Shown here piece after piece: positions 584-60,585 of a stretch of DNA of 64,000 nucleotides. The notes beneath the pieces were generated by a model. It was not told the DNA's origin and ran no database searches. It worked only from the letters and a program-made list of their open reading frames with translations. A program made the position numbers and the translations under genes. This DNA is from Nibribacter ruber (lineage in GTDB: Bacteria; Bacteroidota; Bacteroidia; Cytophagales; Hymenobacteraceae): positions 3,905,001-3,969,000 of the forward strand of contig NZ_CP047897.1 in the NCBI RefSeq assembly GCF_009913235.1, written 5' to 3'. Position 1 is the stretch's first letter, and each line of letters starts with the position of its first letter.

Positions 584-621
584 CGTTTTTAGTCTGATTT
601 CCAGAAACTAAGCCAAAAACG
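584..621. repeat. Palindromic intergenic repeat, copy 1
   Basis: Imperfect copy of the CGTTTTT...AAAAACG palindrome (CCAG centre), 6 bases beyond the stop of the M61 peptidase gene and between two genes read leftward. Confidence 0.8.
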
Positions 622-627
622 CCGGGG

Positions 628-2475
628 CTACTGCACTGTTTTACTTCCTAACCAGGCCTCGCGGCGGGCTTTCATGTCTGGCGTGAGCGTCTGACCGGTT
701 TTCTCCAGAGGCACCATTTCAATTTTTGGGTCCTGCGCCAGCGTGACGGCCACTTGTTTCTTGGTGCCGCGCTGCTCTACTTCCACCTGAACGGTCTGGC
801 CGGGCTTGAACTTGTTCAAAATCTCATCCAGGGTCTTCTGGTCTTTCAGCTTTTTGCCATTCACCGTCAAAAGGACGTCTTCGCGGTCCAGGCCTGCCTT
901 GTAGAGCGGGCTGCCAATGTGCGTGCCGCTCATTAACGTGGCCTGGTCATTAGTGAACTGTAATTGTTCTGTGTTCAAAACGGCTTTTCCCGGCCGCGCA
1001 GTCCGCAAAACCACACCCATCTGCTTGGCCAGGGTTTCATACGGCATCAGCTCCTTGCCATGTACGTGTCTTAAGAAGAAATCTTTGGCGAAGGCAGGAT
1101 CTTTGGTCAAATCTGCCAAGGCTACTTCCAGGTCTGCCAGCGTATATGGCTTTTCTGGTTTGCCGTGGCGCTGCCAGAGCAGGCGCATGTAGTCGTCTAA
1201 GGTCAAGCCCTGAAATCTGGTGCGTAAGGTCAGGTCCAAACCAAAGCCCACCGCACTCCCGAAGGTGTAGTACGAGATGAACGTATTGTGCCTGTTCACC
1301 GGGTCCACTGATCTGGAGGCGTCTACAAACGGCGCCTGCATGCTCATCTCAACTGGCGAGAAGTAGTTTTTGCCCGGTGCGAAGATTACATAACCCACCT
1401 CATCGGCGGCGGCCTGCAAGTATTCTTCTGCGTTGATGACGCCCGCGCGGTGCATGAGCAAGTCTGTGTAGTAATTAGTGAAGCCTTCGGCCAGCCACAG
1501 TTCACCGCTCATGTTGGCGTCTGCAAAGTTGAACGGCTCCAGGCTCTTGGGCCTGATGCGCTCTACGTTCCAGGAATGGAAAAACTCATGCGCCAGAGTT
1601 CCCAGATTGCCAATCATGCCGGTGCGCAAAGGACGCGAACTGGTGATGCTGGTAGAGTTGCGGTGCTCCATTCCGTCTCCAGGCGTGCCCGGCATGTAAC
1701 AGGCCAAAAAGGTGTACGTGCCGAAGTCAAAGGCGGGAAGCTCCCCAAACACGGCCTGCGCCTGCGTGACAATGCGCTGGGCCTTCTGCGTGTACTCGTC
1801 CAGTTCTTTCTCAGTGCCCTGGTGGTGCATGGCAATTCTAACCTGCTGGGTGCGGCCGTTTTCTGCCACGGGCCACTGGCGCCATTGCAGGTTGGCCAGC
1901 TCAGTGGGGCTGTCCATGAGGTATTGGAAATTTGGCGCGCTGAACGTGAGGTTGTTGCCAGTCTCGGGCTTTAACTGCGTGGCTGCTGTCCATTGCGGAA
2001 AATTAGTGGCCTTGAATTCCACCCGCGCTGGGGCCTGCTCAAAGCCGTTGGCGTACATAAACGTGGCAGGAGCGTTTAACTTGGCATGCGTTTCATTCAC
2101 GCCGGCATAGGTGCCATCGGGTCGGTCAGCGAAGAGGGTGTAGGTGATGTGTACCGTGCCGTCATGGCCAGAGACGTTCCATTGGTGCAGGTTGGGTCTG
2201 GTGATGGGTAATGGTTTGCCCTGGCTGTCAAAGGCCTGCACGCTGTACACGTTCTTGGCGAACTCATGCAACGCATACCGGCCTGGCGAGGAGCGGCTCA
2301 TGCGCACTTCCAGCACCGGAGTTTTCACCCCCTGAAAGACCGCTTTTACCTGGGCCTCATGGTGGGCCGCGTTCTCAAACGAAACCGTGTAGTGTATTTG
2401 TTGTTCCTGGGCTTGGGCAGGAGAGGTGAACCCCCATATCATGACGGCAACGGCCGCACAAATGCTCTTTTTCAT
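628..2475 (-). CDS. M61 family (glycyl aminopeptidase-like) peptidase with PDZ domain
   Basis: A 615-residue exported metallopeptidase. A signal peptide (residues 1-22, ending AQA) is followed by the N-terminal M61 beta domain. The catalytic domain has the zinc motif HEFFH at about residues 296-300, followed by WNVERIRP, which is highly typical of M61, and a third-ligand region LAEGFTNYY near residue 329. A PDZ domain lies near residues 495-585 (GSPLYKAGLDREDVLLTVNG). The family cleaves N-terminal Gly or Ala residues; here it probably acts in the periplasm on peptides. Length and domain order match intact family members. The ATG at 2475 directly precedes the signal peptide. Confidence 0.93.
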   Translation of the reverse strand: MKKSICAAVAVMIWGFTSPAQAQEQQIHYTVSFENAAHHEAQVKAVFQGVKTPVLEVRMSRSSPGRYALHEFAKNVYSVQAFDSQGKPLPITRPNLHQWNVSGHDGTVHITYTLFADRPDGTYAGVNETHAKLNAPATFMYANGFEQAPARVEFKATNFPQWTAATQLKPETGNNLTFSAPNFQYLMDSPTELANLQWRQWPVAENGRTQQVRIAMHHQGTEKELDEYTQKAQRIVTQAQAVFGELPAFDFGTYTFLACYMPGTPGDGMEHRNSTSITSSRPLRTGMIGNLGTLAHEFFHSWNVERIRPKSLEPFNFADANMSGELWLAEGFTNYYTDLLMHRAGVINAEEYLQAAADEVGYVIFAPGKNYFSPVEMSMQAPFVDASRSVDPVNRHNTFISYYTFGSAVGFGLDLTLRTRFQGLTLDDYMRLLWQRHGKPEKPYTLADLEVALADLTKDPAFAKDFFLRHVHGKELMPYETLAKQMGVVLRTARPGKAVLNTEQLQFTNDQATLMSGTHIGSPLYKAGLDREDVLLTVNGKKLKDQKTLDEILNKFKPGQTVQVEVEQRGTKKQVAVTLAQDPKIEMVPLEKTGQTLTPDMKARREAWLGSKTVQ

Positions 2476-2534
2476 AGAAGCGTAGATTTACGCCTCAAGA
2501 TACACAGGATTGCCATAGGGCGCCACCCTCTTTT

Positions 2535-3203
2535 TTAAGGACCAGGCTTTCTGTATTGCTGCGCGCAGATGAACCCACCGTAGAAGTCCGTTTCTTCTTC
2601 TAGGGTATACCCCCGTTCCTGAAACAACTGCCGGAAGAGCGGTAACCTCCTGGCCGGCACCTGGCTCACCCAACCAAAGAAGCGGTACATGGCCCACAGC
2701 AAAGGTTGCTGCCAGATTTTCTTAAACCAACTGTCGCTCTCCTGGAAGTCTGTGTGCAGCCAGAGCCCGCCGGTTAGTAAATGCTGGTCCAGGGTCTGCA
2801 CCATCTGCCGGGCCTGCTCCACTGCAAACAAATCCAACACGAAGGGCGTCAGAACCACGTGGAACTTCTCCTCTGTGCCCAAGTCTTTTTCTGTACCGAC
2901 TCTGAACTCTACCTGCGTTTCCAGCCCGGATTGGCTCTTTTTCTGAAGCCTTTCCTTCGCCAGATGGACCATTTTCTCAGAAGCCTCCAGAAACAGGACA
3001 TGCCCGGGTCGAGCCAGCCTCAGTACCTCCGTCAAAATCCAACCGGTTCCCCCGCCCAAGATCAGCACTTGGGCATGTTCAGGAATACTAGCCAAATACT
3101 GTTGCTGGGCTCTAAGTTGCGCACTGCCATACACCCCCTTCGCCAGTTGGTCATACAGCGGCGCGATACCATTGAAATTTGGAAAAGAGGGCACTAGAGA
3201 CAT
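2535..3203 (-). CDS. Class I SAM-dependent methyltransferase
   Basis: A 222-residue protein with a Rossmann methyltransferase fold. The SAM-binding glycine motif VLILGGGTGWI lies at about residues 46-56, followed by an acidic residue at the end of strand 2 (LFLEAS) and a motif IV-like VVLTPFVLDLF. The substrate is unknown. The open frame extends upstream to 3248, but that extension reads through a palindromic repeat and encodes the repeat-derived peptide NRPKTE, so I place the start at the ATG at 3203, where the sequence resembles a normal N-terminus. The gene is 59 bases upstream of the M61 gene on the same strand and may be cotranscribed with it. Confidence 0.8.
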   Translation of the reverse strand: MSLVPSFPNFNGIAPLYDQLAKGVYGSAQLRAQQQYLASIPEHAQVLILGGGTGWILTEVLRLARPGHVLFLEASEKMVHLAKERLQKKSQSGLETQVEFRVGTEKDLGTEEKFHVVLTPFVLDLFAVEQARQMVQTLDQHLLTGGLWLHTDFQESDSWFKKIWQQPLLWAMYRFFGWVSQVPARRLPLFRQLFQERGYTLEEETDFYGGFICAQQYRKPGP

Positions 3204-3214
3204 ATCCTGGGCTT

Positions 3215-3254
3215 CCGTTTTTGGCCTATTTCCCCGAAAATACGCCAAAAACAG
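3215..3254. repeat. Palindromic intergenic repeat, copy 2
   Basis: Copy of the palindrome 11 bases upstream of the methyltransferase ATG at 3203, so it would form a hairpin in the leader of that mRNA. Confidence 0.85.
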
Positions 3255-4741: not shown

Positions 4742-4780
4742 CGTTTTTGGCCTGTTTCCTGGAAAATAAGCCAAAAACGG
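4742..4780. repeat. Palindromic intergenic repeat, copy 3
   Basis: Well-conserved copy (CCTGG centre) between divergent genes, 19 bases before the PAP2 start codon at 4800. Confidence 0.88.
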
Positions 4781-4799
4781 ACCACCCAAACCCGCGCCT

Positions 4800-6897: not shown

Positions 6898-6936
6898 CGT
6901 TTTTGGCCTGTTTCCCTTAAAAGAGGCTAAAAACGG
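6898..6936. repeat. Palindromic intergenic repeat, copy 4
   Basis: Left arm CGTTTTTGGCCTGTTT is conserved; the right arm AGAGGCTAAAAACGG is slightly diverged. Between convergent genes. Confidence 0.8.
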
Positions 6937-7592: not shown

Positions 7593-7594
7593 GG

Positions 7595-7632
7595 CGTTTT
7601 TGGGTTATTTTCCAGAAATCAGGCTAAAAACG
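7595..7632. repeat. Palindromic intergenic repeat, copy 5
   Basis: Starts 2 bases upstream of the macro-domain gene's ATG, in the ribosome-loading region of that mRNA. Confidence 0.8.
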
Positions 7633-11097: not shown

Positions 11098-11136
11098 TGT
11101 TTTTGGTGTGTTTTATCGGAATTAGCCAAAAACAGG
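11098..11136. repeat. Palindromic intergenic repeat, copy 6 (diverged)
   Basis: Outer arms TGTTTTTGG / CCAAAAACA kept, centre diverged. Lies in the gap between two genes read leftward. Confidence 0.65.
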
Positions 11137-14251: not shown

Positions 14252-14292
14252 CCGTTTTTGCTCTGTTTTCTGAGAAAGAAGCTAAAAACTGG
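14252..14292. repeat. Palindromic intergenic repeat, copy 7 (diverged)
   Basis: CCGTTTTTGCTCTGTTTTC with CTGA centre and diverged right arm, in the region upstream of the M16 operon. Confidence 0.65.
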
Positions 14293-15061: not shown

Positions 15062-15100
15062 CGCTTTTCGCCTAATTCCCAGAAAGCAGGCCAGAAACGG
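15062..15100. repeat. Palindromic intergenic repeat, copy 9
   Basis: CGCTTTTCGCCTAATTCC then CAGAAAGCAGGCCAGAAACG, ending 4 bases before the MFS transporter stop codon (minus strand). Confidence 0.7.
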
Positions 15101-16311: not shown

Positions 16312-16350
16312 CGTTTTTGGCTTCTTTCCTGGGAAACAGACCAAAAACGG
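16312..16350. repeat. Palindromic intergenic repeat, copy 10
   Basis: CGTTTTTGGCTTCTTTCC / GGGAAACAGACCAAAAACGG in the divergent promoter region between the MFS and YitT genes. Confidence 0.83.
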
Positions 16351-18013: not shown

Positions 18014-18053
18014 CCGTTTTTGGCTTGTTTTCCAGGAAACAGCCTAAAAACGG
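18014..18053. repeat. Palindromic intergenic repeat, copy 11
   Basis: CCGTTTTTGGCTTGTTTTCC / AGGAAACAGCCTAAAAACGG, 21 bases after the DUF695 stop and just before a separate strong terminator hairpin. Confidence 0.87.
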
Positions 18054-21342: not shown

Positions 21343-21394
21343 CCGCCGTTTTTGGCTTGTTTTCTGGAAAACAAGCCAAAAACGACGGCTACGG
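21337..21394. repeat. Palindromic repeat, copy 12, with extended 28-bp arms
   Basis: The core palindrome (TTTTC-TG-GAAAA centre) is extended by CCGTAGCCG on the left and CGGCTACGG on the right, giving 28-bp arms with one mismatch. It includes the epimerase stop codon. Confidence 0.92.
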
Positions 21395-22033: not shown

Positions 22034-22074
22034 TGGTTTTTAGGCTATTTTTTGGGAATAAGGGCAAAAACAGG
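22034..22074. repeat. Palindromic intergenic repeat, copy 13 (diverged)
   Basis: GGTTTTTAGGCTATTTTTTG / GGGCAAAAACAGG, ending 3 bases before the DedA stop codon. Confidence 0.65.
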
Positions 22075-24610: not shown

Positions 24611-24617
24611 TCCCAAG

Positions 24618-24695
24618 TTTTAGGGGTGCCTTAACAAAACGGGCTGAGATCATACCCATTGAACCTGATACGGTTAGTACCGGCGAAGGGAAAAA
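24618..24695 (+). promoter_or_regulatory. TPP (THI-box) riboswitch
   Basis: GGGGTGCC (24623-24630), the conserved GGCTGAGATCATACCC (24642-24657) with the pyrimidine-sensing CTGAGA loop, TTGAACCTGATACGGTTAGT (24659-24678) and ACCGGCGAAGGGAA (24679-24692) are the diagnostic blocks of the thiamine pyrophosphate aptamer. The aptamer precedes the TonB-receptor ATG by about 75 bases. Thiamine pyrophosphate binding should reduce expression of the receptor, by attenuation or by hiding the start site; which one was not resolved. Confidence 0.95.
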
Positions 24696-24768
24696 CAAGG
24701 GAAACAAAACAATTTGGGAGCACCAACCCCTGGTGTGGCCTGCATGTTTTACCATTACCATCTTTCAC

Positions 24769-27228
24769 ATGAAAAGAGTATTAGCCCTGCTTGTGGGCTG
24801 TCTGTTGCCTTGGTTTGCCATGGCACAAATTACGCTGTCTTCTTATGATTCTGTAGACGTCACCTTATCTGGCCGCGTAATAGACGCCGCCACCCGCCAG
24901 CCGTTGGTGGGCAGTACCATTTACATCCAGCAGATAAGTCTGCAAACCCAGAGCGGCGCAGACGGGCGCTTTCAATTTGTCAACCTTCTAGCTGGCGACT
25001 ATTTGGTAAGAATCAGCCATGTGGGCTACGGCACCGTGACAGAGTACATAGAGTTGGGTGAAAGCCAGAACCAGGAGTTTGCCCTCACGCGCGACAACCT
25101 CACTACCAAAGAAGTATTGGTGACGGCCACCCGCGCCAATGAGAAAACCGGCACCACCTACAGCAACGTGAGCAAAGAAGAAATCCAGAGCCGAAATTTC
25201 GGTCAGGACCTGCCCTATCTGCTGGAAAACACGCCGTCATTGGTCACCAACTCAGACGCCGGGGCGGGTGTGGGCTATACCGGCTTGCGCATACGGGGCT
25301 CAGACATTACCCGCATTAACGTGACCGTGAATGGCATACCAGTGAACGACGCCGAGAGCCACGGTGTCTTCTTTGTGAACATGCCTGACTTTGCTTCTTC
25401 TTTGCAGGACGTGCAGATACAGCGAGGCGTGGGTACCTCCAGCAACGGACCCGGAGCCTTCGGGGCAAGCCTGAACCTGCAGACCCAAGACGCCAGCCAG
25501 GAAGCGTATGCGCGCACGGACAACGCCTTTGGCTCTTACAACACCTGGAAAAACAACGTACAGTTTGGTACCGGCCTGCTGGGTGGAAAGTTTGCGGTTG
25601 ACGGCCGTCTATCCAGAGTCTCTTCTGACGGCTACATTGACCGCGCCACCTCAGACCTTAAGTCCTTTTATGTGTCTGGCAGTTACTACGGCGCTAAGGA
25701 TTTCTTGAAACTGGTGGTCTTTGGCGGAAAGGAAATCACCTACCAGGCATGGAACGGGGTAGACGAAGAAACCCTTAAAACCAACCGCACCTTTAACTCT
25801 GCGGGCACAGACTATGGTAGCACAGAAATACCCTATGACAACGAGGTAGACGACTATCAACAGAACCATTATCAATTACACTATGGCCATTCCTTCAGTC
25901 CGCAATGGACGCTGAACGGAGCTTTGCACTATACACGGGGCTTCGGGTTTTATGAGCAATTCAAAGTGAATGAGAAATTCGCCAATTACAACATTCCGGT
26001 GGCTGATGGCAGTACCGTGAAAAGAACGGACTTAGTGCGCCAGAAGTGGCTGGACAATCATTTCTACGGAACCACTTTCTCTTTGCAGTACCAAGGCCTG
26101 GGCAGATTGTCGGCTACGTTGGGAGGGGGCTGGAACCGGTATGCCGGAGACCATTACGGCGAGGTAATTTGGGCGCAGTACGCTTCTACCATTAGACCCA
26201 ACCACCGCTACTATGAGAACGATGCCCAGAAAACCGACTTCAACGTGTATGGCAAGGTAAACCTGGCCGTCACGGACCAACTAGGCTTGTTCACTGACCT
26301 GCAGGTGCGTACCGTGGATTATAAGATTGACGGCTTTGACGATGACCGCCGCGACGTAACCACCCGCGCTGATTATGCTTTCTTCAACCCCAAAGCCGGT
26401 ATCACCTACAACATCACCAACAACCACAACCTGTACGCATCCGTGGCGGTGGGCAACCGTGAACCTACGCGTTCTGATTTCACAGACCGTCCGGCCAATG
26501 ACGTGGCCAAACCAGAGCGCCTGGTGGACTGGGAAGCCGGTTACCGTTTCAACCAAAGCCTGGGCCAAGTGGCAGGCCAGTCATTGCTGTTCCGCTCAGA
26601 TTTGACGTATTTTTACATGGACTACAAAGATCAATTGGTCTTAACGGGTCAGCTGAATGATGTGGGAACGGCACTTAGAACCAACATCCCAGAAAGCTAT
26701 AGAACCGGCGTAGAGCTGTCGGGTAACCTGTTCATTGGCGAGTTTGTGGATGTGACTACCAACCTGTCCTTCTCCAGAAACCGCATCAAGCAGTTCACCG
26801 AGGTCCTGCCTATTGACTATAACCCAGAGGATGTGGTAGTAAATGAGTACGATGAAACCACCATTGCCTATTCGCCTAGCGTAGTGACGTCTTCACAGAT
26901 TCAGGTGAGACCCCTGACCGGTTTGCGCGTGGCTTTCCAGTACAAGACCGTGAGTGAGCAATTCCTGGACAATACCGCCAGCCAGAACCGAAGATTATCA
27001 CCGTATGGCATAGGGGATGCCCACGTGTTCTACACCTTCAAACCGGTTTCTTGGATGAAGGAAGTAGAAGTGGGATTGCTGGTGAACAACGTCTTCAATA
27101 AAGAGTATGAGGCCAACGGCTACACCTTCACAGAGCTATACGATGGTGACCCGAACCGCTATGATTACAACTATTATTTCCCCCAAGCGCCACGTAACTT
27201 CCTGGCTCAGGTAAGCCTTCGTTTTTAA
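24769..27228 (+). CDS. TonB-dependent outer-membrane receptor, thiamine-regulated
   Basis: An 819-residue receptor. The signal peptide (MKRVLALLVGCLLPWFAMAQ) is followed by a carboxypeptidase-like regulatory domain (residues about 30-110: VIDAATRQPLVGSTIYIQQI), a plug domain (about 120-235, with GLRIRGSDITRINVTVNGIP and the preceding QDLPYLLENTPSL) and a 22-strand-type barrel ending in the usual terminal Phe (SLRF). The TPP riboswitch in its leader predicts that it imports thiamine or a precursor. The start is the ATG at 24769, not the upstream frame opening. The stop codon TAA lies within a palindromic repeat whose left end supplies the final Arg-Phe-stop codons. Confidence 0.94.
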   Translation: MKRVLALLVGCLLPWFAMAQITLSSYDSVDVTLSGRVIDAATRQPLVGSTIYIQQISLQTQSGADGRFQFVNLLAGDYLVRISHVGYGTVTEYIELGESQNQEFALTRDNLTTKEVLVTATRANEKTGTTYSNVSKEEIQSRNFGQDLPYLLENTPSLVTNSDAGAGVGYTGLRIRGSDITRINVTVNGIPVNDAESHGVFFVNMPDFASSLQDVQIQRGVGTSSNGPGAFGASLNLQTQDASQEAYARTDNAFGSYNTWKNNVQFGTGLLGGKFAVDGRLSRVSSDGYIDRATSDLKSFYVSGSYYGAKDFLKLVVFGGKEITYQAWNGVDEETLKTNRTFNSAGTDYGSTEIPYDNEVDDYQQNHYQLHYGHSFSPQWTLNGALHYTRGFGFYEQFKVNEKFANYNIPVADGSTVKRTDLVRQKWLDNHFYGTTFSLQYQGLGRLSATLGGGWNRYAGDHYGEVIWAQYASTIRPNHRYYENDAQKTDFNVYGKVNLAVTDQLGLFTDLQVRTVDYKIDGFDDDRRDVTTRADYAFFNPKAGITYNITNNHNLYASVAVGNREPTRSDFTDRPANDVAKPERLVDWEAGYRFNQSLGQVAGQSLLFRSDLTYFYMDYKDQLVLTGQLNDVGTALRTNIPESYRTGVELSGNLFIGEFVDVTTNLSFSRNRIKQFTEVLPIDYNPEDVVVNEYDETTIAYSPSVVTSSQIQVRPLTGLRVAFQYKTVSEQFLDNTASQNRRLSPYGIGDAHVFYTFKPVSWMKEVEVGLLVNNVFNKEYEANGYTFTELYDGDPNRYDYNYYFPQAPRNFLAQVSLRF

Positions 27229-27258
27229 CCTGATTTCCAGAAAACACCCGAAAAACGG
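27220..27258. repeat. Palindromic repeat, copy 14, overlapping a stop codon
   Basis: CGTTTTTAACCTGATTTCCA / GAAAACACCCGAAAAACGG. The left arm contains the TonB receptor's last two codons and TAA; the right arm AAAAACGG is shared with the following terminator stem. Confidence 0.82.
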
Positions 27259-27302: not shown

Positions 27303-27341
27303 CCGATTTTGGCCTGTTTTCTAGAAAAGAGGCGAAAAACG
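27303..27341. repeat. Palindromic intergenic repeat, copy 15
   Basis: CCGATTTTGGCCTGTTTTC / GAAAAGAGGCGAAAAACG with a CTAG-type centre. Second copy within 85 bases of copy 14. Confidence 0.8.
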
Positions 27342-28786: not shown

Positions 28787-28830
28787 AAAAACAAAAAGGC
28801 CACTACAGAAATGTAGCGGCCTTTTTGTTT
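28787..28830 (+). terminator. Terminator of the acyl-CoA dehydrogenase gene
   Basis: AAAAACAAAAAGGCC(A)CTAC pairs with GTAG(C)GGCCTTTTTGTTTTT around AGAAAT. Its 3' T-run merges with the next palindromic repeat. Confidence 0.88.
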
Positions 28831-28863
28831 TTGGGCTGTTTTCTTGGAAACAGGCCAAAAATG
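28826..28863. repeat. Palindromic intergenic repeat, copy 16
   Basis: TGTTTTTGGGCTGTTTTC / GGAAACAGGCCAAAAATG, immediately after the terminator and sharing its T-run. Confidence 0.8.
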
Positions 28864-29011: not shown

Positions 29012-29020
29012 GCGAGTGTG

Positions 29021-29057
29021 GATTTTGCCTGTTTTCTGGGAAACAGCCCAAAAACGG
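29021..29057. repeat. Palindromic intergenic repeat, copy 17
   Basis: GATTTTGCCTGTTTTCTG / GGAAACAGCCCAAAAACGG, ending 2 bases before the stop of the 108-residue gene on the minus strand. Confidence 0.8.
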
Positions 29058-30778: not shown

Positions 30779-30817
30779 CGTTTTTAGCCTGTTTTCTAGA
30801 AAGTAGGCCAAAAACAG
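30779..30817. repeat. Palindromic intergenic repeat, copy 18
   Basis: CGTTTTTAGCCTGTTTTC / GAAAGTAGGCCAAAAACAG (CTAG centre), between the ruvB terminator and queG. Confidence 0.85.
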
Positions 30818-34063: not shown

Positions 34064-34102
34064 CGTTTTTAGCCTGTTTTCCAGGAATTAGATGAAAAAG
34101 GG
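34064..34102. repeat. Palindromic repeat, copy 19, containing the batD start codon
   Basis: Left arm CGTTTTTAGCCTGTTTTCC is well kept; the right arm is diverged and contains the ATG (34092-34094) of the next gene. Confidence 0.7.
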
Positions 34103-36601: not shown

Positions 36602-36639
36602 CGGTTTTTAGCCGGTTTTGTCAGATTTAAGCCAAAACT
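36602..36639. repeat. Palindromic intergenic repeat, copy 20 (diverged)
   Basis: CGGTTTTTAGCCGGTTTTG / TTTAAGCCAAAACT, 4 bases after the aroC stop. Confidence 0.55.
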
Positions 36640-36689
36640 AGAGTTTTATCATCTGGGCCGCATCTCTACTTAAGTAGGCTCCAATAAAC

Positions 36690-36749
36690 AAGCAAGGTCC
36701 CGTTTTTGGGCTGTTTCCTGTAAAACAGCCCAAAAACGGGACCTTGCTT
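36690..36749. repeat. Palindromic repeat, copy 21, perfect 27-bp arms
   Basis: AAGCAAGGTCC joined to the core CGTTTTTGGGCTGTTT pairs perfectly with the right arm around CCTGTA. The right end runs into CTTTTATG. It lies between convergent genes and may also end transcription. Confidence 0.93.
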
Positions 36750-36769
36750 TTATGCAACGCTTCTCTCTT

Positions 36770-39005: not shown

Positions 39006-39019
39006 TTTCACCCCAAACC

Positions 39020-39075
39020 GCGCAAGGCCGTTTTTAGGCTATTTTCCAGGAAATTGCCCAAAAACGGCCTTGCGC
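39020..39075. repeat. Palindromic repeat, copy 22, with extended arms
   Basis: The core is flanked by GCGCAAGGC and GCCTTGCGC, which extend the stem beyond the conserved CGTTTTT/AAAAACG ends. Confidence 0.9.
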
Positions 39076-39196
39076 TGGAAGAAGATGGTTTTGGACCAGT
39101 GCGCAGTTGAGCAAAGGAAAGAGAAGAAAGCTAGTTGAAATTAGCCAATACCAAGAAGCCACTGCCTGCGTATACGGCCTACAACTAAAGCAAATT

Positions 39197-40983: not shown

Positions 40984-41021
40984 CGTTTTTGGCCTTTTTT
41001 CCAGAAAATACGCCAAAAACG
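40984..41021. repeat. Palindromic intergenic repeat, copy 23
   Basis: CGTTTTTGGCCTTTTTTC / AGAAAATACGCCAAAAACG, 17 bases after the permease stop. Confidence 0.85.
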
Positions 41022-46151: not shown

Positions 46152-46340
46152 GACAGTGATCAGTTAACAGTAAAGAGTAAACAGTTGGTAGTAACCAATA
46201 AATAGTGAGCAGTAAACTAGGGAACAATATTAATATTGTTGAAGCCGTTTTTGGCCTGTTTTGAGTGAAACAGACTAAAAACGGAAATCTCCTTTTATCC
46301 TGTTCACTGATTACTCCTAACTGTTCCCTGCTAACTGTTT
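46152..46340. repeat. Inverted AACAGT-rich tracts flanking a palindromic repeat
   Basis: 46152-46222 is built of AACAGT/AGTAAACAG-like units, and 46300-46345 contains their reverse complements (CTGTTTACTGTTAC, AACTGTTCCCTGCTAACTG). The two tracts flank the palindromic repeat at 46245-46284, so the whole 190-base gap can fold on itself. Confidence 0.6.
46245..46284. repeat. Palindromic intergenic repeat, copy 24
   Basis: CCGTTTTTGGCCTGTTTTG / GTGAAACAGACTAAAAACGG at the middle of the gap between two minus-strand genes. Confidence 0.85.
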
Positions 46341-48580: not shown

Positions 48581-48636
48581 CAAAACTCCCGTTTTTGGCT
48601 TATTTCTCAGGAAACAGGCCAAAAACGGGAGTTTTG
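48581..48636. repeat. Palindromic repeat, copy 25, with extended arms
   Basis: The core is flanked by CAAAACTCC and GGAGTTTTG, adding a locus-specific stem. It follows the GlmU-like gene by 21 bases. Confidence 0.9.
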
Positions 48637-48990: not shown

Positions 48991-49051
48991 TGCGCTCCCC
49001 TCAAGGGGAGAGTCCGCGTTGAATAACCGCATTGAGCGTAAGAAACAAAAA

Positions 49052-49091
49052 CCGTTTTCCGCCTGATTTCTGAAAAATAGCCTAAAAACGC
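49052..49091. repeat. Palindromic intergenic repeat, copy 26
   Basis: CCGTTTTCCGCCTGATTTC / GAAAAATAGCCTAAAAACG, about 70 bases before the start of the DNA polymerase III subunit gene. Confidence 0.75.
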
Positions 49092-51241: not shown

Positions 51242-51401
51242 GAGCTTGTTTATGTTTTGGTTTTGCCAGCGAAAAGTGGAAGCAGAAGGTTCTGGCGAAA
51301 TAATTTTTGAGCAGCATAGCAGCGCTACGGTGAGAAAAAATTATGAAGACAGGTTCTTTTGATGCCGCTTTGCAGCGCAAAAAGAAAACATATACATGCT
51401 C
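51242..51401. repeat. 160-bp imperfect palindrome, MITE-like
   Basis: The left half GAGCTTGTTTATGTTTTG... (51242-) mirrors the right half ...AAAACATATACATGCTC (to 51401) at roughly 70% identity, with an inner ATAATTTTT / AAAAAATTAT stem around a short centre. It fills the gap between hemC and the palindromic repeat at 51408. Confidence 0.6.
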
Positions 51402-51407
51402 CAAATT

Positions 51408-51446
51408 CGTTTTTAACCTAATTTCCAGAAATCAGCCTAAAAATAG
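51408..51446. repeat. Palindromic intergenic repeat, copy 27
   Basis: CGTTTTTAACCTAATTTCC / CAGAAATCAGCCTAAAAATAG, ending 3 bases before the cyclophilin ATG. Confidence 0.82.
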
Positions 51447-53035: not shown

Positions 53036-53082
53036 TTTCCGTTTTTGGCCTGTTTTCTGGAAAAGAGGCCAAAAACGGAAAC
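53036..53082. repeat. Palindromic repeat, copy 28
   Basis: TTTTCCGTTTTTGGCCTG TTTTC-TG-GAAAA with right arm GAGGCCAAAAACGG: one of the best-conserved copies, and it touches the next hairpin. Confidence 0.9.
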
Positions 53083-53470: not shown

Positions 53471-54418
53471 ATGCTCAACCGTTTGCTCCGCCAGATACGC
53501 GACTACTTCAACTTCTCGCAACGCGAGCTCAACGGCTTTCTCATACTCATCTTGGCCATGGCGGTCTTCATTGCCGCGCCCTTTCTACTGTATCAAGAAG
53601 ATGAGCCCTACGACCCCACTACGGACCAGAAAATCCTTGACAGCTTAGTAATACAACTAGACACAAAAGCCGCACATGTAGCCGAGGAGCGGGCCAACCG
53701 CTACCGCAAGAAACCGATCAAACTTTACCGCTTCAATCCTAACCAACTCAACGTGGCGCAGTGGCAGGAGCTGGGGCTGAACAAATACATCGCCCAACGA
53801 ATTCTGAACTACCGCGCCAAGGCTGGAGACTTCAAAAGCAAAGCGCAACTACAGAAGATTTACGGATTGCCAGATTCGCTCTTCCAACTGTGGTACCCAT
53901 ACATTGATTTGCCTGAGGAAAGTGCTGGCTATGCAAAGAGAGACGGCGAATCGTTTTCGGGCTCTTTTCCGGAAAACAGGCCAAAAACGGAGTATGCGCG
54001 CAAACGCTGGGAACTACAGCCCTTTGACTTGAACACGGCAGACACCACGCAACTCAAACAGATAAGAGGCATTGGGAGCAAACTGTCTCAGCGCATCGTC
54101 AAGTTCAGGGACAAGATGGGCGGCTTTCATTCGGTAAACCAGGTGGCTGAGGTGTACGGCTTGGCGCCGGAAGTGATAGACAGCGTGCGCAAATACACCT
54201 TCATCGCGCAGGGCGCCGGCCCGCAGAAACTCAACCTGAACACCGCTACGTTTGACCAGCTTCGTCAGCACCCATATATTGGTTTTAACCTGGCCAAGGC
54301 TATCATCAATTACCGCACCCAGCATGGCGCGTACGGCAGTGTGGAAGACCTGCGTAAAATCAAATTGATTGATGAGGCGGCCTTTCAGAAGATGCAACCT
54401 TATTTGACCGTGCAGTAA
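53471..54418 (+). CDS. Helix-hairpin-helix protein (ComEA-like DNA-binding repeats) with one membrane helix
   Basis: A 315-residue protein: a short cytosolic N-terminus, one membrane helix (about residues 22-42), then three helix-hairpin-helix units: FNPNQLNVAQWQELGLNKYI near 94-113, LNTADTTQLKQIRGIGSKLS near 186-205 and LNTATFDQLRQHPYIGFNLA near 256-275. ComEA-type HhH domains bind DNA without sequence preference, so a DNA-uptake or envelope-DNA role is possible. Residues about 161-174 (SFSGSFPENRPKTE) are encoded by a copy of the palindromic repeat in frame, in a linker between HhH units. Confidence 0.85.
   Translation: MLNRLLRQIRDYFNFSQRELNGFLILILAMAVFIAAPFLLYQEDEPYDPTTDQKILDSLVIQLDTKAAHVAEERANRYRKKPIKLYRFNPNQLNVAQWQELGLNKYIAQRILNYRAKAGDFKSKAQLQKIYGLPDSLFQLWYPYIDLPEESAGYAKRDGESFSGSFPENRPKTEYARKRWELQPFDLNTADTTQLKQIRGIGSKLSQRIVKFRDKMGGFHSVNQVAEVYGLAPEVIDSVRKYTFIAQGAGPQKLNLNTATFDQLRQHPYIGFNLAKAIINYRTQHGAYGSVEDLRKIKLIDEAAFQKMQPYLTVQ
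53952..53990. repeat. Palindromic repeat, copy 29, inside the HhH gene
   Basis: CGTTTTCGGGCTCTTTTCC / GGAAAACAGGCCAAAAACGG: length 39, read in frame. The linker it encodes resembles peptides read from intergenic copies (NRPKTE). Confidence 0.88.
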
Positions 54419-54640: not shown

Positions 54641-57600
54641 ATGCAAACTCCAGCCACGTCTCTGCCCAACCTGCTCAAACAGTACCAACGCCGCCTGCTC
54701 AACCTAAGCGGTTCCAACAGGTCTTTGGTGTTGTTGCGGCCGTCGGTGAGTCTGCATTTAGACGTGCATGCACTGGACCATACGCATAAAGGACCATCGT
54801 TTGAGTATGTAGAGGCCTTGCTGGCGGGTAAAGAGAAGATTGCCTTATGCGAGGTGGCCGACGGGCGTGATGCGGCCCTGGCGCCTTTGAATAAGCAACT
54901 GAAGACTATTCAGCGGCGGGCGCATATGATTTGGGAGGAGCGCGGCGCGAAGGAGTTGTTTGTAGGCTGGCCCTTCGTGGAAGGCGCGTTCCCGGACGGT
55001 ACCTTGGTGCGCTGTCCTTTGCTGTTTTTTCCGGTTGAGTTGCAGGTGAACGAGAAACGCCAATGGCAACTAATTCGCCCCGAAGACCAGCCGCCCTTCT
55101 TCAACAAAAGCTTTTTGCTGGCTTACGCGCATTACCTCAACGTACCGGTAGACGAGGCGCTCATGGAACTGGACTTGGATGATTTCCCCTCGGACAGCCA
55201 GGCCTACAGAACCAAGCTCTACGAGACGCTGAAGGAAAGCAACATAGACCTCAACTTCAACCAGGAGCTGTTCACCAACATTCTGCAAGCCTTCAAAACC
55301 TATAAGCGCGAAGACCTGGAGAAGACCTGGAAGCCGGGGCAACTCAAGCTTCAGCCCGAGGCCGTGCTGGGCATCTTTCCGCAGGCCGGTTCTTACCAGC
55401 TAACCGATTATGAGGAACTGCTGGAAAACCCGCCGGCAGAGTCTTTAGAGGAATTGCTCTTGCCTCAAACCGAAGTAAATCCCGCCATTGCCGCCCTGGA
55501 ACAGCAATTGTTTACCGCCTTTGACGCAGACGCCTCGCAGGAAGCCGCGCTTAAGCAGGTGAAGTCGGGGCAGAGCGTGGTGGTGCAGGGACCTCCGGGC
55601 ACGGGTAAGTCCCAGCTCATCTGCAACTTGGTCTCTGACTATCTGGCGCGCGGCAAAACAGTGTTGGTGGTCTGTCAGAAACGCGCCGCCTTGGACGTGG
55701 TGTATTCCAGATTGTCCACGCAAGGCTTAGATAAGTTTGCGGCGCTGGTGCATGACTTGAATCTGGATAGAGGCTTGGTCTTCAATAAAATCCGTCAGCA
55801 GATTGAGCAGGTAGACGAATATCAGCGCCAGGACAAAACGCTGGGCAACGTGCACGCCGAGCGTCAGTTTCTGGAAGTGAGCCGGCGCATCAACCAAATC
55901 TCTGAGCGGCTCAACTCATTGAAAGAAGCCCTGTTTGACACTAGCGTCTGCGGTTGGAGTGTAAAGGAATTGTACCTCCGGAGCAATCTGCGCGCGCCGC
56001 AACTGCCGCTGGAAAATAACTACCTGCCGTTCACGGCGCAGACCTGGCAAGAGGAGCGGCCGCGCCTGATGCACTATTTGCAAGACGCCGTGACCTTGCA
56101 AGCCCCAGATTTCCCGTGGAACGAGCGAAGAAGTTTCCAACACCATACCTGGAACGAGCGGCAAAAACTTCTGCAATTACTAACGGAAATCCCAGCGGCG
56201 GTGCAGGAGAATGCCAAATCATTAGCACCCTTGCTTCCCGCACAAGCCGAGCCCTGGGATGCCTTGCAGGCTTTGCTTCAAGAGCTTTCCACCTTACAAA
56301 CATTGCAACATGACTTGCAGGAAAAAACCGTTTTTAGGCTGTTTTTCGGGAATCTGGGCAAAAACACGAACCAGCGCGAGGCGGAAGGATTATTCACCAA
56401 AATACAGCAACAGACCAAGGCCACATCGGTGCAACTATCTGCCATGGAAGCCGACCAGCTACGGCGGTTGCTACAGAGCCATGACGAGGCGCAATCAGGT
56501 TTCTTCGGGATGATAAAGTGGCAGTTTGCGCAGGAGCGGAAGCAATTACAGACATTTGCCGAGCAGAAGAAAATCACCCACGCAGACACTGCCACGGAGC
56601 AGTTACGCGAGGCCTTGCAGAACTGGGACGGCTTGCAAACGCAGTGGAAGCAGCTGCAAGTACTAGAACCAACATTAGAGATTCTGGAGGAGCTGTTTTC
56701 ACCGCAAGCCAATACAGAATTGACCGCTTTGCAAAAAGCTTGGGAATTGCGGTCACAGCTACAGCAACTGGTGGCGTATGACGTCTTGCCAGAAGAGGTT
56801 TTGCAGATGCGCCCTGAGCGTTTTCAGGCTGTTTTCTCAGAATCTCTGCCAAAACTGAAACTGCTGGAGGAGCGGCAGAACGAGTGGGAGAAGTGGCTCA
56901 CCGAAGGCCAGATTGAACAGCTGGCTGTGGACCCTTCGGCCGTCACGCGCCTGTCCCAGAGCCTAGCAGAAAACTTCGACCGGTTGGTGGCTTATGATGC
57001 CTTGTTGGCTTCTTTCTCACCAGAACTCAAGGCTTGGTTAGCACAACTTCGGCAAGCGGTGCCAGAAGGCATTGAGGCGCAGTTGCAGGCCATGGAGAAC
57101 AGCATTTACCTGGCCTGGATTCAGCATATAGAAGCCAAATATCCAGTGTTGACCATGGTGAGTACCGGCGAACTGGAGCGTCTTGAAGCCGAGTTGCAGG
57201 AAGCCATTCAGCGCAAAGCAGAACTAAGTAGGCAGATCATTCTCTTAAATCTACGCGAGCAGACGTTCAAAAACATGGAGTACAACCGCCTGGGTAATCC
57301 GGTGACGTACCGTAGATTGCTCACGCAGGTAAGTAAGAAAAGACAGCTCTATCCCTTGCGCAAATTGCAGGCGCAGTTCGGGGAAGAAGTGTTGCGTTTG
57401 TTACCTTGCTGGCTAGCCTCGCCCGAGACGGTGTCGGCGTTGTTCCCGCTGGAGCGCGTGTTTGACCTGGTTATTTTTGACGAGGCTTCGCAGTGCTTCG
57501 CCGAAGTGGGAATCCCGGCCATGATGCGCGGCAAGCAGGCCGTCATTGCCGGTGATGAGCAACAACTAGGACCTTCAGATTTATACCGCGTGCGCTTCGG

Positions 57601-58633
57601 TGGCGAGGAAGACGAGGCCGAGGAACTGGTGGTGGAATCCCTGTTGCAACTGAGCGCTTTGCACTTGCCGCAGACCCTGCTCACCGAACATTACCGAAGC
57701 CAGTACCCAGAACTCATCCAGTTCTCCAACCAGCATTTCTACCGCCACAAACTACAACTCATCCCCAAGCAGGAGGCCATGAACAGCACCCAGCCCGCGT
57801 TGCAGTTCTTGAAAGTGGACGGCCTTTGGCAAGACCAAACCAACCGGCCAGAGGCAGAGCGTGTGCGCGATTTAGTCTTTGAACTGATGGCCCAAGACGA
57901 GACTGACATTGGCGTGATTACCTTCAACTTCCCGCAACAGCAATTGGTACAGGACCTACTGGAAGAACAGGCGCTGGGGCAGAACATGCAACTGCCCGAG
58001 GCGCTCATCATCAAGAACATTGAGAACATCCAGGGCGACGAGCGGCAGTTCATCATTTTCTCCATTGGCTACGCGCCAGACGTGAACGGCGTGGTGCGCG
58101 CGCAGTTCGGGAGTTTGAATGCCGCCAAAGGTGAGAACAGGCTGAACGTGGCCATTACGCGCGCCATCAAACGCGTGTACGTGGTGACTAGTCTGTGGCC
58201 AGAGCAGTTCCCCGTGGAGAACGTGAAGCATGTTGGTCCCAAGCTCTTGCGGGACTACCTGGCTTTTGCCAAACAGGTCAGCGAGAACGGTTTTATTCCT
58301 CAACCTGCGCCGGTTGGACAGGTGCCTTCCTCCGCATTATTGTACCCAGCGATTTTGGCCTCTTTTGGCCAAAACAGCCCAAAAACGGAGGTTCAAGCAG
58401 AACTTCCGTTCGCAGACCTTACTTTCCGAAACGAGGGGCGCTATCAAGCCGTACTACTCACCGACGACGACTTGTATTACAGACGCCCATCCGCCAAAGC
58501 CACGCACGCCGATATGCCCTTCAGGCTAAGCGCAAGAGGCTGGAGGTTCGGTACCGTGTACAGTCGTCAGTTCTGGAGCCAGCCTGAACAGGTATGGCAA
58601 AAACTAACCGACTTGAGTACCCCAATACCATGA
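54641..58633 (+). CDS. Large SF1 (UPF1-type) helicase, DUF4011-like N-terminus
   Basis: A 1330-residue superfamily 1 helicase. The N-terminus (LLKQYQRRLLNLSGSNRSLV) resembles DUF4011. Walker A QGPPGTGKSQLICNLV is near residue 316; after a long helical insertion come Walker B FDEASQCFAEV near 945, motif III GDEQQLGPSD, motif IV TEHYRSQYPEL near 1014, motif V NIENIQGDERQFIIFSIGY near 1126 and motif VI NVAITRAIKRVYVV near 1170. The function is unknown: nucleic-acid remodelling, repair or defence are all possible. Two clear and one weak copies of the palindromic repeat lie in its frame. The ATGA overlap at the end couples it to a lipoprotein gene. Confidence 0.88.
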   Translation: MQTPATSLPNLLKQYQRRLLNLSGSNRSLVLLRPSVSLHLDVHALDHTHKGPSFEYVEALLAGKEKIALCEVADGRDAALAPLNKQLKTIQRRAHMIWEERGAKELFVGWPFVEGAFPDGTLVRCPLLFFPVELQVNEKRQWQLIRPEDQPPFFNKSFLLAYAHYLNVPVDEALMELDLDDFPSDSQAYRTKLYETLKESNIDLNFNQELFTNILQAFKTYKREDLEKTWKPGQLKLQPEAVLGIFPQAGSYQLTDYEELLENPPAESLEELLLPQTEVNPAIAALEQQLFTAFDADASQEAALKQVKSGQSVVVQGPPGTGKSQLICNLVSDYLARGKTVLVVCQKRAALDVVYSRLSTQGLDKFAALVHDLNLDRGLVFNKIRQQIEQVDEYQRQDKTLGNVHAERQFLEVSRRINQISERLNSLKEALFDTSVCGWSVKELYLRSNLRAPQLPLENNYLPFTAQTWQEERPRLMHYLQDAVTLQAPDFPWNERRSFQHHTWNERQKLLQLLTEIPAAVQENAKSLAPLLPAQAEPWDALQALLQELSTLQTLQHDLQEKTVFRLFFGNLGKNTNQREAEGLFTKIQQQTKATSVQLSAMEADQLRRLLQSHDEAQSGFFGMIKWQFAQERKQLQTFAEQKKITHADTATEQLREALQNWDGLQTQWKQLQVLEPTLEILEELFSPQANTELTALQKAWELRSQLQQLVAYDVLPEEVLQMRPERFQAVFSESLPKLKLLEERQNEWEKWLTEGQIEQLAVDPSAVTRLSQSLAENFDRLVAYDALLASFSPELKAWLAQLRQAVPEGIEAQLQAMENSIYLAWIQHIEAKYPVLTMVSTGELERLEAELQEAIQRKAELSRQIILLNLREQTFKNMEYNRLGNPVTYRRLLTQVSKKRQLYPLRKLQAQFGEEVLRLLPCWLASPETVSALFPLERVFDLVIFDEASQCFAEVGIPAMMRGKQAVIAGDEQQLGPSDLYRVRFGGEEDEAEELVVESLLQLSALHLPQTLLTEHYRSQYPELIQFSNQHFYRHKLQLIPKQEAMNSTQPALQFLKVDGLWQDQTNRPEAERVRDLVFELMAQDETDIGVITFNFPQQQLVQDLLEEQALGQNMQLPEALIIKNIENIQGDERQFIIFSIGYAPDVNGVVRAQFGSLNAAKGENRLNVAITRAIKRVYVVTSLWPEQFPVENVKHVGPKLLRDYLAFAKQVSENGFIPQPAPVGQVPSSALLYPAILASFGQNSPKTEVQAELPFADLTFRNEGRYQAVLLTDDDLYYRRPSAKATHADMPFRLSARGWRFGTVYSRQFWSQPEQVWQKLTDLSTPIP
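56328..56367. repeat. Palindromic repeat, copy 30, inside the helicase gene
   Basis: CCGTTTTTAGGCTGTTTTTC / GGGAATCTGGGCAAAAACACG, read in frame as TVFRLFFGNLGKNTN within the region between Walker A and B. Confidence 0.75.
56819..56857. repeat. Possible palindromic repeat, copy 31, inside the helicase gene (weak)
   Basis: CGTTTTCAGGCTGTTTTCTC / GAATCTCTGCCAAAACTG. Several mismatches, so it could be a chance match. Confidence 0.35.
58350..58389. repeat. Palindromic repeat, copy 32, inside the helicase gene
   Basis: CGATTTTGGCCTCTTTTGG / CCAAAACAGCCCAAAAACGG; encodes LASFGQNSPKTE in the C-terminal tail of the helicase. Confidence 0.8.
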
Positions 58634-59556: not shown

Positions 59557-59604
59557 ACCTCACCCGCATTCAAAAGGATGATGATATAAAAACATGCCAG
59601 GCGC

Positions 59605-59637
59605 TAAGTAGTTTTCTGCTTAGCGCTTCTGCTTTCA
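59605..59637 (+). terminator. Terminator of the lipoprotein gene
   Basis: GCGCTAAG and CTTAGCGC around TAGTTTTCTG, followed by TTCTGCTTTC. The T-run is weak. Confidence 0.5.
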
Positions 59638-59647
59638 AGTGAATTTT

Positions 59648-60517
59648 ATGGAAAAGAGAATATTAGTAACCGGTGCCACTGGCACCGTGGGAAATGAAAC
59701 GGTAAAAGCCCTTTCTGCCATGGGCGCGCACGTACGGGCCGGCCTCAGGTCTGTGGTGAAGGGCGAGAACCTCAAACGCCTGCCCGGGGTAGAAGTGGTG
59801 GAGATTGATTTTAGCCGACCTGCCACCCTTACCGCTGCTTTTACCGGCATTGACACTTCTTTCTTGATTACGCCTTTTGACGAGCATCAGGTAGAGATGG
59901 CCAAACAGTTGATTGACGCGGCGCAGAAGGCAGGGGTGCGGCACGTGGTGCGGCTGTCGGCGAGTGGGGCAGAAGCTGAGCCGGGCATCCAACTGGGCAG
60001 ATGGCACCGCGAAGCGGAACAGTATCTGGAGGCTGCGCATCTTCATTATACCCACCTGCGGCCCACGTCTTTCATGCAGAACTTTGTGAACCAGCACGCG
60101 CAGAGCATTCAGGAAGAAAATGCCTTTTACCTGCCTCTGGGCAACGGCCGTGTGACCTACATTGACGTGCGGGACATTGCCGCGGTGGCCGCCAGCATAC
60201 TGTTGCATCCAGAAGGGCATGACGGCATGGCCTATACACTTACCGGTGCAGAGGCGCTGTCTGGTGATGAGGTTGCCAGCGCTTTGTCACAGGCCACGGG
60301 CAGAGCCATTTCTTATGTAGACGTACCCGAGGAGGCCGCCCGAAATGCCATGCAGCAGCACCAATTGCCGGCCTGGATGATTGACAGCCTGTTGGAGTTG
60401 AACGGCATCTGCAAAGCCAATTACGCTTCCGGCACCACAGACACTGTGCAGGAAATCACTGGCAGACCGCCCCATACCTTCGCAGATTTCGCGGAGACCT
60501 ATAAAGCCTGCTTCTAA
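59648..60517 (+). CDS. NmrA-like NAD(P)-binding oxidoreductase
   Basis: A 289-residue atypical SDR of the NmrA/YtfG type. The nucleotide-binding motif ILVTGATGTVGNETVKAL is near residues 5-22, then LRSVVKGENLKRL (an NADP-preferring Arg) and HYTHLRPTSFMQNFVNQHA near 136-154, a typical NmrA segment. No catalytic YxxxK is evident, so it may be a redox sensor or a quinone reductase-like enzyme. The start is the ATG at 59648; the frame opens at a GTG at 59639. Confidence 0.85.
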   Translation: MEKRILVTGATGTVGNETVKALSAMGAHVRAGLRSVVKGENLKRLPGVEVVEIDFSRPATLTAAFTGIDTSFLITPFDEHQVEMAKQLIDAAQKAGVRHVVRLSASGAEAEPGIQLGRWHREAEQYLEAAHLHYTHLRPTSFMQNFVNQHAQSIQEENAFYLPLGNGRVTYIDVRDIAAVAASILLHPEGHDGMAYTLTGAEALSGDEVASALSQATGRAISYVDVPEEAARNAMQQHQLPAWMIDSLLELNGICKANYASGTTDTVQEITGRPPHTFADFAETYKACF

Positions 60518-60533
60518 AGTAAGCTTCTCTGGC

Positions 60534-60585
60534 AGTCCTCCGTTTTTGGCTAGTTTTCATGAAAACTGACCAAAAACGGAGGACT
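60534..60585. repeat. Palindromic repeat, copy 33, with extended arms
   Basis: AGTCCTCCGTTTTTGGCTAG TTTTC-AT-GAAAA CTGACCAAAAACGGAGGACT: 25-bp arms with two mismatches, 17 bases after the oxidoreductase stop. Confidence 0.92.

Follow-up and report, generated by a model that had tools for sequence, protein, structure and literature searches.

A dense family of 38-bp palindromes with species dialects in Nibribacter ruber and its genus, possibly a self-recognition signal of the uptake-sequence type

A 64,000-nucleotide stretch of the Nibribacter ruber genome (the window; positions 3,905,001-3,969,000 of a single contig of 4,352,178 bases) carries some 30 copies of a 38-bp palindromic DNA element. 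This element belongs to a family of about 1,800 copies per genome, by extrapolation, which recurs throughout Rufibacter in the GTDB sense (Hymenobacteraceae), the genus that includes N. ruber (G000 in our numbering of genomes). Judging from comparisons between species, the family is probably one that is maintained in place, at the level of the DNA, and that did not spread by insertion. Its closest analogs may be the DNA uptake sequences (DUS) of Neisseria and the uptake signal sequences (USS) of Haemophilus; we tentatively favor this analogy, in which the motif would serve to recognize a cell's own DNA, with rather less than even confidence.

The elements are numerous and easily detected. A search with a 16-mer half-arm (up to three mismatches) returned 58 matches, against 1.58 ± 1.32 in 100 shuffled sequences (the largest value being 8), and comparison with the 38-mer gave 30 copies in the window matching at 26 or more of the 38 positions, where the reversed consensus reached 21 at most. 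The initial annotation, made from the letters of the window, had listed about 30 palindromes, and 30 of its 31 main coordinates agree with ours within 11 bases, the larger offsets arising where outer arms (see below) had been counted in. Its copy at 36602 (36603 here) is weaker than the rest (24/38, 18 bits), yet three other species have a counterpart; of the two copies that it had called weak, the one at 56819 is present (25/38, 16 bits), and the one at 14961 was seen in neither of our ungapped scans. Two further positions, 25205 and 38208 (23-24/38), were treated as chance matches. The family is genome-wide, as had been supposed: in 464 kb (the window and 20 evenly spaced 20-kb stretches, each holding 5-12 copies) we counted 196 copies, and none in the reversed sequence. 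With a refined matrix, 200 copies score at least 14 bits and 201 at least 8 bits, with none in the control; thus, the elements stand cleanly apart from the background. Over the whole genome, 264 places match with no more than two mismatches. At gathering thresholds, the only Rfam match in the window is a thiamine pyrophosphate (TPP) riboswitch.

The consensus of the unit is CGTTTTTGGCCTGTTTT-CCAG-AAAACAGGCCAAAAACG, a dyad of 17+4+17 bp, and not arms of 18 bases around a center of two to four bases as first described: in all 175 pairs in which both arms exceed 13 bits, the gap between them measures 4 bp (control, 0). The most common center is CTGG (46/201), followed by CCAG (39/201), so that the two centers, and the two orientations of the family, had been recognized correctly. 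Within the arm, the GTTTTT and TTTT positions and their mirror images are almost invariant, and positions 8, 10, 11, and 13 are the most variable; T tracts lie on the outer left and A tracts on the outer right of the core, a polarity opposite to that of intrinsic terminators, as had also been noticed, and the T/A tracts within each arm are spaced by about one helical turn. The flanks beyond the 38 bp are nearly uninformative (0.01-0.09 bits per position), apart from a single biased base (0.54 bits; C or T). Half-sites hardly ever occur alone: at 18 bits or more, 352 lie within elements and two are solitary (control, 0), and at 14 bits five lie outside elements, as against five in the control. 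Each arm matches the consensus (0.87) better than it pairs with its partner (just 0.79), and among 29 window copies neither the covariation nor the pairing of the arms exceeds that of shuffles of the 3′ letters. Selection on a hairpin through compensatory changes is likewise unsupported by orthologous copies (10 compensations versus 7.2, P = 0.13). Because the arms do not covary, the gap is fixed, and solitary half-sites are rare, it is likely that the dyad is recognized as a duplex; we read the element as a putative binding site for a dimer rather than as a hairpin.

We compared 16 Rufibacter genomes (including G000; 39-464 kb sampled of each), deriving a consensus for each species by a search seeded with the G000 motif, which quite different palindromes in other genera would escape. 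With a degenerate seed, the family is present in all 16 genomes at 3.3-6.5 copies per 10 kb (at most one match each in the reversed control); outside the genus, the same seed found nothing in 11 of 12 genomes and one match in the other (20-40 kb each). The G000 matrix found no copies in these 12 genomes (379 kb in all), and the G000 spelling (up to two mismatches) occurs in eight of 39 whole genomes, all eight of Rufibacter. The presence of the family in relatives, which the initial annotation had proposed to look for, extends to the genus and, with the G000 matrix in this sample, not outside it.

Two kinds of family can be told apart. Six species (G000, G007, G001, G005, G006, and G013) have a sharp consensus of 41-50 bits (49.7 bits in G000), and ten (G002-G004, G008-G012, G014, and G015) have a blurred one of 25-35 bits at normal density; the difference persists at an equal sample size of 13 copies (38-43 versus 24-34 bits). 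In the species tree, which we used unrooted (support for the placement of the outgroup was 0.48), eight of these ten group together. The blurred species look as if a homogenizing process had been lost there. Among the sharp species, the spelling differs in dialects: GTTTTTGGCC / CGTTTTTGGCCTG in G000 and G007, GTTTTGGGCC / CGTTTTGGGCCTG in G006, GTTTAGGGGC / CGTTTAGGGGCTG in G005, and GTTTTCGGGCTCATTTC / CGTTTTCGGGCTCATTTC in G013, with a mixed dialect in G001. Although the dialect consensus was built symmetrically, individual copies do carry the dialect change on both arms. In five orthologous pairs of G000 and G006 copies, own-dialect letters are found at 0.90 and 0.80 and cross-dialect letters at 0. 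One copy with perfect arms in the GTTTTGGGCC spelling was also seen, between two ORFs (open reading frames), in a 39-kb IMG/VR contig (IMGVR_UViG_2839759663_000002, L237, 1274-1311); a 40-mer query against plasmid and phage collections gave no match, from which, the query being short, we conclude nothing.

The copies are conserved in place. We mapped them between genomes through local alignments, scoring aligned and unaligned DNA separately. In aligned DNA, G007 has a copy at the matching place for all of 21 G000 copies, compared with 19 of 599 random intergenic points, and in nine pairings of G000, G001, G005, G006, and G013 the figures are 20 of 23 against 83 of 1,415, although loci recur between these pairings and the counts are therefore not independent. 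The aligned DNA of the compared species is 69-89% identical, and much of the surrounding intergenic DNA cannot be aligned; with aligned and unaligned DNA taken together, 28 of 30 copies have a counterpart in G007 (several copies sharing one) and 49 of 62 have one in the nine pairings. For example, two copies separate the chorismate synthase gene from the citrate-transporter gene in G000, G007, G006, and G005, the second with different outer arms in each; the intergenic gap that precedes the gene at 51450 (element 51408) holds a copy of 22-55 bits in all 11 genus genomes (G000 and 10 others) in which both genes stand together; and the gap between the RmlD-like and ComEA-like genes (element 53040) holds one in G000, G006, G001, G005, G009, G013, and G007. 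Moreover, 18 one-to-one orthologs in G000 and G007 share 35 private deviations from the consensus, compared with 18.7 when permuted (maximum 33 in 5,000 permutations), showing descent rather than re-insertion; shared deviations are also significant between G006 and G005 (P = 0.0075) and between G000 and G006 (P = 0.049).

Further evidence comes from copies in coding DNA. Some 41 of 200 copies fall within called ORFs, many of which are short or have the copy near a start that is possibly wrong; the genuine genes with coding copies, by Pfam and NCBIfam, encode a ComEA-like protein, a helicase, a GH77 glucanotransferase, and a TMEM260-like protein. Following the test used for the USS of Haemophilus (PMC1626085), we took seven coding copies in these four genes and aligned the surrounding protein sequence with homologs of other genera. 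Four of the seven show no insertion: the GH77 copy (amino acid 715) is ungapped against two outside homologs; the TMEM260-like copy at amino acid 577 is ungapped against four outside homologs (including G016, at -20.5 bits) and three paralogs within the genus; at helicase copy 56329 the outside proteins are not 13 residues shorter, so that there is no 38-nt insertion; and at helicase copy 56819 an ungapped alignment spans the element, preceded by a gap of two residues in two of three outside homologs and by a longer gap in the remaining one. As for the other three, genus proteins are 3-6 residues longer than outside ones at helicase copy 58350, the ComEA copy sits in a variable linker, and TMEM copy aa 73 has no counterpart outside the genus.

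Scored with a generic matrix, most coding copies recur across the genus and not beyond it, all outside homologs and paralogs scoring -2.7 to -51 bits. The ComEA copy (53952) scores 22.9-47.9 bits in 16 of 16 genus genomes and -15 or less in eight of eight outside homologs scored; the GH77 copy scores 19-33 bits in 16 of 16, and TMEM aa 577 scores 9.5-30 bits in the 14 of 14 genus genomes with the gene, the outside homologs of these two ranging from -28 to -6 bits. TMEM aa 73 reaches 20-38 bits in the same number (14 of 14; 26 bits in G003), and, in the seven of seven genus genomes aligned, the helicase copies score 28-38 bits (56329; -24 or less in three outside homologs) and 18-26 bits (56819; below -31 in three). 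As far as the alignments allow a decision, the coding copies arose by substitution, not insertion, a conclusion that we draw for coding copies only. Their codons partly track the dialect at TMEM aa 577 (GTTTTTGGCCTG in G000, G007, and G001, GTTTCGGGGCTG in G005, and GTTTTCGGGCTC in G013), and over four coding loci and five sharp species the own-dialect total is 606, compared with 509 when permuted (P = 0.027, phylogeny not removed). This is suggestive of coding copies that follow the dialect of their species.

The copies keep fixed places, some of them within genes, and their spelling changes genome-wide by species, a pattern for which insertion does not account. The same traits are known from uptake sequences. 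Uptake in Neisseriaceae and Pasteurellaceae is pilus-based, a machine of the type IV pilus type being general for the known DUS and USS cases. HIP1-type and Chi-type motifs (about 8 bp) are also abundant, species-linked, and present in coding DNA, and we know of none that shifts as a two-arm dialect at orthologous sites. The present motif resembles DUS and USS in that its copies are very numerous and occupy conserved places, its spelling differs by species, its coding copies, where this could be decided, formed by substitution, inverted arrangements occur inside terminators, and the consensus is weak in some relatives. It differs in its unit, a 38-bp palindrome where theirs is a word of some 9-12 bp, in the near absence of solitary halves, in having no pilus ATPase above cut-off, and in the phylum that carries it. 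In the excerpts that we draw on, the literature describes uptake-sequence dialects for Neisseriaceae and Pasteurellaceae, those of DUS among them (PMC3630211); holds that USS are not insertions, using dialects, coding copies by substitution, and fixed place to tell them from mobile repeats, and that a weak consensus accompanies lost competence (PMC1626085); reports inverted DUS pairs in terminators (PMC3630211, PMC2397512) and the origin of many recent DUS through recombination rather than point mutation (PMC2397512); and explains the sequences of Neisseria and Haemophilus by biased uptake and recombination of own-species DNA (PMC3630211, PMC1626085, PMC2397512). Because of the features shared with DUS and USS in Neisseria and Haemophilus, we prefer a reading of the uptake type to one in which the dyad is bound by an intracellular protein.

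On the uptake-type reading, a dimeric protein would read the motif as duplex DNA, and the same recognition would keep or drive every site towards the current dialect: own-species DNA bearing the motif would be favored in uptake or processing and would then recombine, and good spellings would replace poor ones at the same locus. If the specificity of the reader shifted, the spelling of the genome would follow; if the system were lost, the motif would blur, as it may have done in 10 of the 16 species. The position of copies downstream of genes and in terminator loops would reflect tolerance. The full version of this scheme, in which a 38-bp dyad is read by a dimer without a type IV pilus and dialect switches bar gene exchange between sister species, is a possibility that we hold more loosely than the analogy itself.

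Several observations weigh against self-recognition of the uptake type or against the evidence for a motif maintained in place. In none of the 16 genus genomes does a PF00437 pilus or secretion ATPase score above cut-off (sub-cut-off matches only; the control exceeds cut-off in 13 of 14), this being the pilus gene searched. ComEC (PF03772) is present in 16 of 16, but it is equally found in eight of nine other genomes searched and therefore says little. Known uptake sequences are short and act as single copies, whereas this motif is a full 38-bp palindrome with almost no solitary half-sites. The dialects are not equally clean, G001 matching its own poorly (0.50, both versus G005 and versus G000); the mean rank of a species' own matrix in 22 coding-copy tests is 5.5 of 16, and the dialect test on coding copies rests on five species related by a phylogeny that was not removed. 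Helicase copy 58350 scores 35 bits in G000 and G007 alone, and -8 to 13 bits in five other genus genomes. The RmlD-ComEA gap has no copy above 4 bits in G002, G004, and G011, and shared private deviations are not significant in the seven other pairings without G007 (3-5 loci each). Counterparts in unaligned gaps (5/5 in G007, where random points gave 0.87; 29/39 in the nine pairings, random 0.73) are not clearly above random points in such gaps and thus uninformative, and we dropped them. Neither can regular spacing be taken as a sign of DNA-level selection: its coefficient of variation (CV) is 0.78, compared with 0.94 ± 0.06 for uniform placement, but a model in which intergenic gaps are occupied independently explains it (CV 0.75 against 0.82 ± 0.06, with 16% of simulations as low).

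A reader that stays inside the cell is the strongest alternative and a close rival, though we think it rather less likely than uptake. Here the motif would be the binding site of an abundant dimeric protein (nucleoid-associated, chromosome-organizing, or repair-related), dialects would follow changes in the protein, and selection could keep the sites at some 1,800 places. The dyad with its invariable spacing, arms that drift independently around the consensus, the near absence of single half-sites, the helical phasing of the T/A tracts, a similar density round the chromosome, and the lack of a pilus ATPase over cut-off all suit such a protein well. What speaks against it is the strength of the consensus, high for a regulator (49.7 bits in G000, and 43 bits at 13 copies), and the need for sites to follow a dialect change singly, even between species as close as G001 and G005.

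The initial annotation had taken the family for a mobile system like the repetitive extragenic palindromes (REP) or bacterial interspersed mosaic elements (BIME), and had suggested looking for a REP-associated tyrosine transposase (RAYT) with the same repeat beside it. The genome does contain three RAYT genes (PF01797, NF047646), namely L003/L054 (G000:C1:1739211-1739759), L001, and L002, whose motifs NHLH, WQ, and YIHQNP or YLHHNP resemble those of subclass 2.6 (PMC6006769); L003/L054 has copies with perfect arms on both sides, and in four of the five genomes with this gene (G000 included) its aligned start is preceded, at 40 bp, by a copy. Atypical structures that are also copied elsewhere are reported to flank the subclass 2.6 genes of Bacteroidetes (PMC6006769). 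On this reading, a subclass 2.6 TnpA_REP would have spread the palindromes, which RAYT-dependent copying or conversion would now homogenize. Across the genus, however, the excess of flanking copies is not significant: for 19 of the 52 matching loci, a set that does not include L001 and L002, compared with 366 background genes, copies lie upstream in 11 of 19 (background 0.41, P = 0.10), downstream in 14 of 19 (0.56, P = 0.09), and on both sides within 300 bp in 7 of 19 (0.23, P = 0.13).

The distribution of RAYT genes does not follow that of the sharp families either. A RAYT match is found in 15 of 16 genus genomes; the exception, at E ≤ 1e-8, is G007, the closest relative of G000, and yet its family is sharp. 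Conversely, G002 and G012 have RAYT orthologs of 73-74% identity (that of G012 with an in-frame stop; that of G002 at 73%) and blurred families, and RAYT homologs occur in several genomes of other genera of the family, where samples of 20-40 kb per genome lack the motif. Therefore, RAYT is neither sufficient nor at present necessary for a sharp family, although it may have had a role in the past, or a RAYT-dependent conversion may recently have been lost in G007. The element shares with REP and BIME its short and mostly intergenic palindromes, both orientations, a preference for 3′ ends, and RAYT genes in most genomes (15 of 16); it differs in its long arms with no need to pair and in lacking the GTAG/CGTC foot (the tag was not seen in the flanks, nor on 85 copies oriented by their centers). 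Together with conserved places, shared private deviations, and decidable coding copies that are not insertions, these differences speak against a mobile system, and we consider a REP/RAYT origin of the present pattern improbable.

A last alternative concerns RNA. The numbers by location are approximate, genes having been called as the longest non-overlapping ORFs: intergenic gaps of at least 40 bp hold a copy in 37/56 convergent, 74/142 tandem, and 17/53 divergent cases, and in tandem gaps the median distance is 36 bp to the upstream stop and 92 bp to the downstream start. A minority of copies sit within locus-specific outer arms, with at least six perfect base pairs in 18 of 192 copies as against 0.03% of 20,000 random places; among 21 copies with outer arms at one mismatch, 11 are convergent, eight tandem, and two in called ORFs, and the six longest cases all lie between convergent genes. 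As a T-rich run follows several of the outer-armed copies, a terminator stem would enclose the element there, and the frequent neighborhood of terminators noticed at the outset is borne out. The core does not have the design of an intrinsic terminator (GC stem, then T-run), for which just the outer-armed copies (18/192) could qualify. Element 36701 illustrates their history: it occupies the same place in G007, G006, and G005 with different spelling and different outer arms, so that the arms seem to turn over around the element. Insertion of the element into the loops of pre-existing terminators, which the outer arms had suggested, was considered and rejected; no empty site was seen at this locus. 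Thus, although the preference for convergent and tandem gaps and the outer arms would suit a 3′-end hairpin acting in transcription termination or in the protection of mRNA ends, such an RNA element is very unlikely in view of pairing that covariation does not uphold, the fixed spacing, copies in divergent gaps and within genes, and the reversed polarity.

Table 1. Palindromic elements and other features of the window (window coordinates; matches are to the 38-position consensus)
Feature	Coordinates	Strand	Match	Remarks
38-bp palindromic element	584..621		32/38	
38-bp palindromic element	3216..3253		32/38	
38-bp palindromic element	4742..4779		35/38	
38-bp palindromic element	6898..6935		33/38	
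38-bp palindromic element	7595..7632		33/38	
38-bp palindromic element	11098..11135		26/38	apparently one base short
38-bp palindromic element	14253..14290		30/38	
38-bp palindromic element	15062..15099		31/38	
38-bp palindromic element	16312..16349		33/38	
38-bp palindromic element	18015..18052		34/38	
38-bp palindromic element	21347..21384		36/38	17/17 pairs formed; outer arms 21337-21394, 10 bp, at most 1 mismatch
38-bp palindromic element	22035..22072		28/38	
38-bp palindromic element	27220..27257		32/38	
38-bp palindromic element	27304..27341		34/38	
38-bp palindromic element	28826..28863		33/38	
38-bp palindromic element	29019..29056		32/38	
38-bp palindromic element	30779..30816		33/38	
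38-bp palindromic element	34064..34101		30/38	
38-bp palindromic element, weak	36603..36640		24/38	18 bits; first of two elements between convergent genes; same place in G007, G006, G005
38-bp palindromic element	36701..36738		34/38	in loop of terminator-like hairpin; outer arms 36688-36751, 13 bp, then T-run
38-bp palindromic element	39029..39066		31/38	outer arms 39018-39077, 11 bp; same place in G007
38-bp palindromic element	40984..41021		35/38	same place in G007
38-bp palindromic element	46246..46283		32/38	G007 copy elsewhere within same intergenic region
38-bp palindromic element	48590..48627		33/38	outer arms 48581-48636, 9 bp
38-bp palindromic element	49053..49090		31/38	G007 ortholog differs at just 3 bases
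38-bp palindromic element	51408..51445		29/38	
38-bp palindromic element	53040..53077		37/38	about 55 bp past stop of RmlD-like gene
38-bp palindromic element	53952..53989		34/38	within ComEA-like gene 53471-54418
38-bp palindromic element	56329..56366		29/38	within helicase gene 54641-58633
38-bp palindromic element, weak	56819..56856		25/38	16 bits; within helicase gene 54641-58633
38-bp palindromic element	58350..58387		31/38	within helicase gene 54641-58633
38-bp palindromic element	60541..60578		32/38	outer arms 60534-60585, 7 bp
ComEA-like helix-hairpin-helix gene with coding copy	53471..54418	+		PF12836; TIGR00426 over cut-off; TIGR01259 below cut-off
TPP riboswitch	24612..24708	+		68.8 bits

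Other features of the window deserve a brief mention. That a ComEA-like gene bears a strong coding copy is possibly a coincidence. A different dispersed repeat occupies about 48647-49037, parts of which recur many times in G007, G005, and G006 (at about 72-100% identity), and a stretch of about 165 bp at about 51239-51404, which abuts element 51408, has dozens of copies in G001 (mostly at 76-82% identity).

In a literature in which subscription journals are mostly uncovered, we found no match joining Rufibacter and natural transformation, none for Hymenobacter and repetitive extragenic palindromic sequences, none for highly repeated intergenic palindromes in Bacteroidetes, and no precedent for self-recognition of the uptake type in Bacteroidota. 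The works retrieved on Rufibacter with palindromic repeats appear to concern other genera, and those on uptake sequences and competence in Bacteroidetes to deal with commensal Neisseria and with type IV pili. Whatever reads the motif, a dense palindromic family in a RAYT-bearing genome is not necessarily a REP family. If the reader is intracellular, it would have a chromosome-wide binding site, repeated at about 1,800 places, whose spelling has switched from one sister species to the next; such a site would be no less surprising than an uptake signal. If the uptake-type reading is true, it would point to a new DNA receptor in Bacteroidota, and would provide a third, unrelated case of uptake sequences, which could be used to test their spread by drive versus selection.

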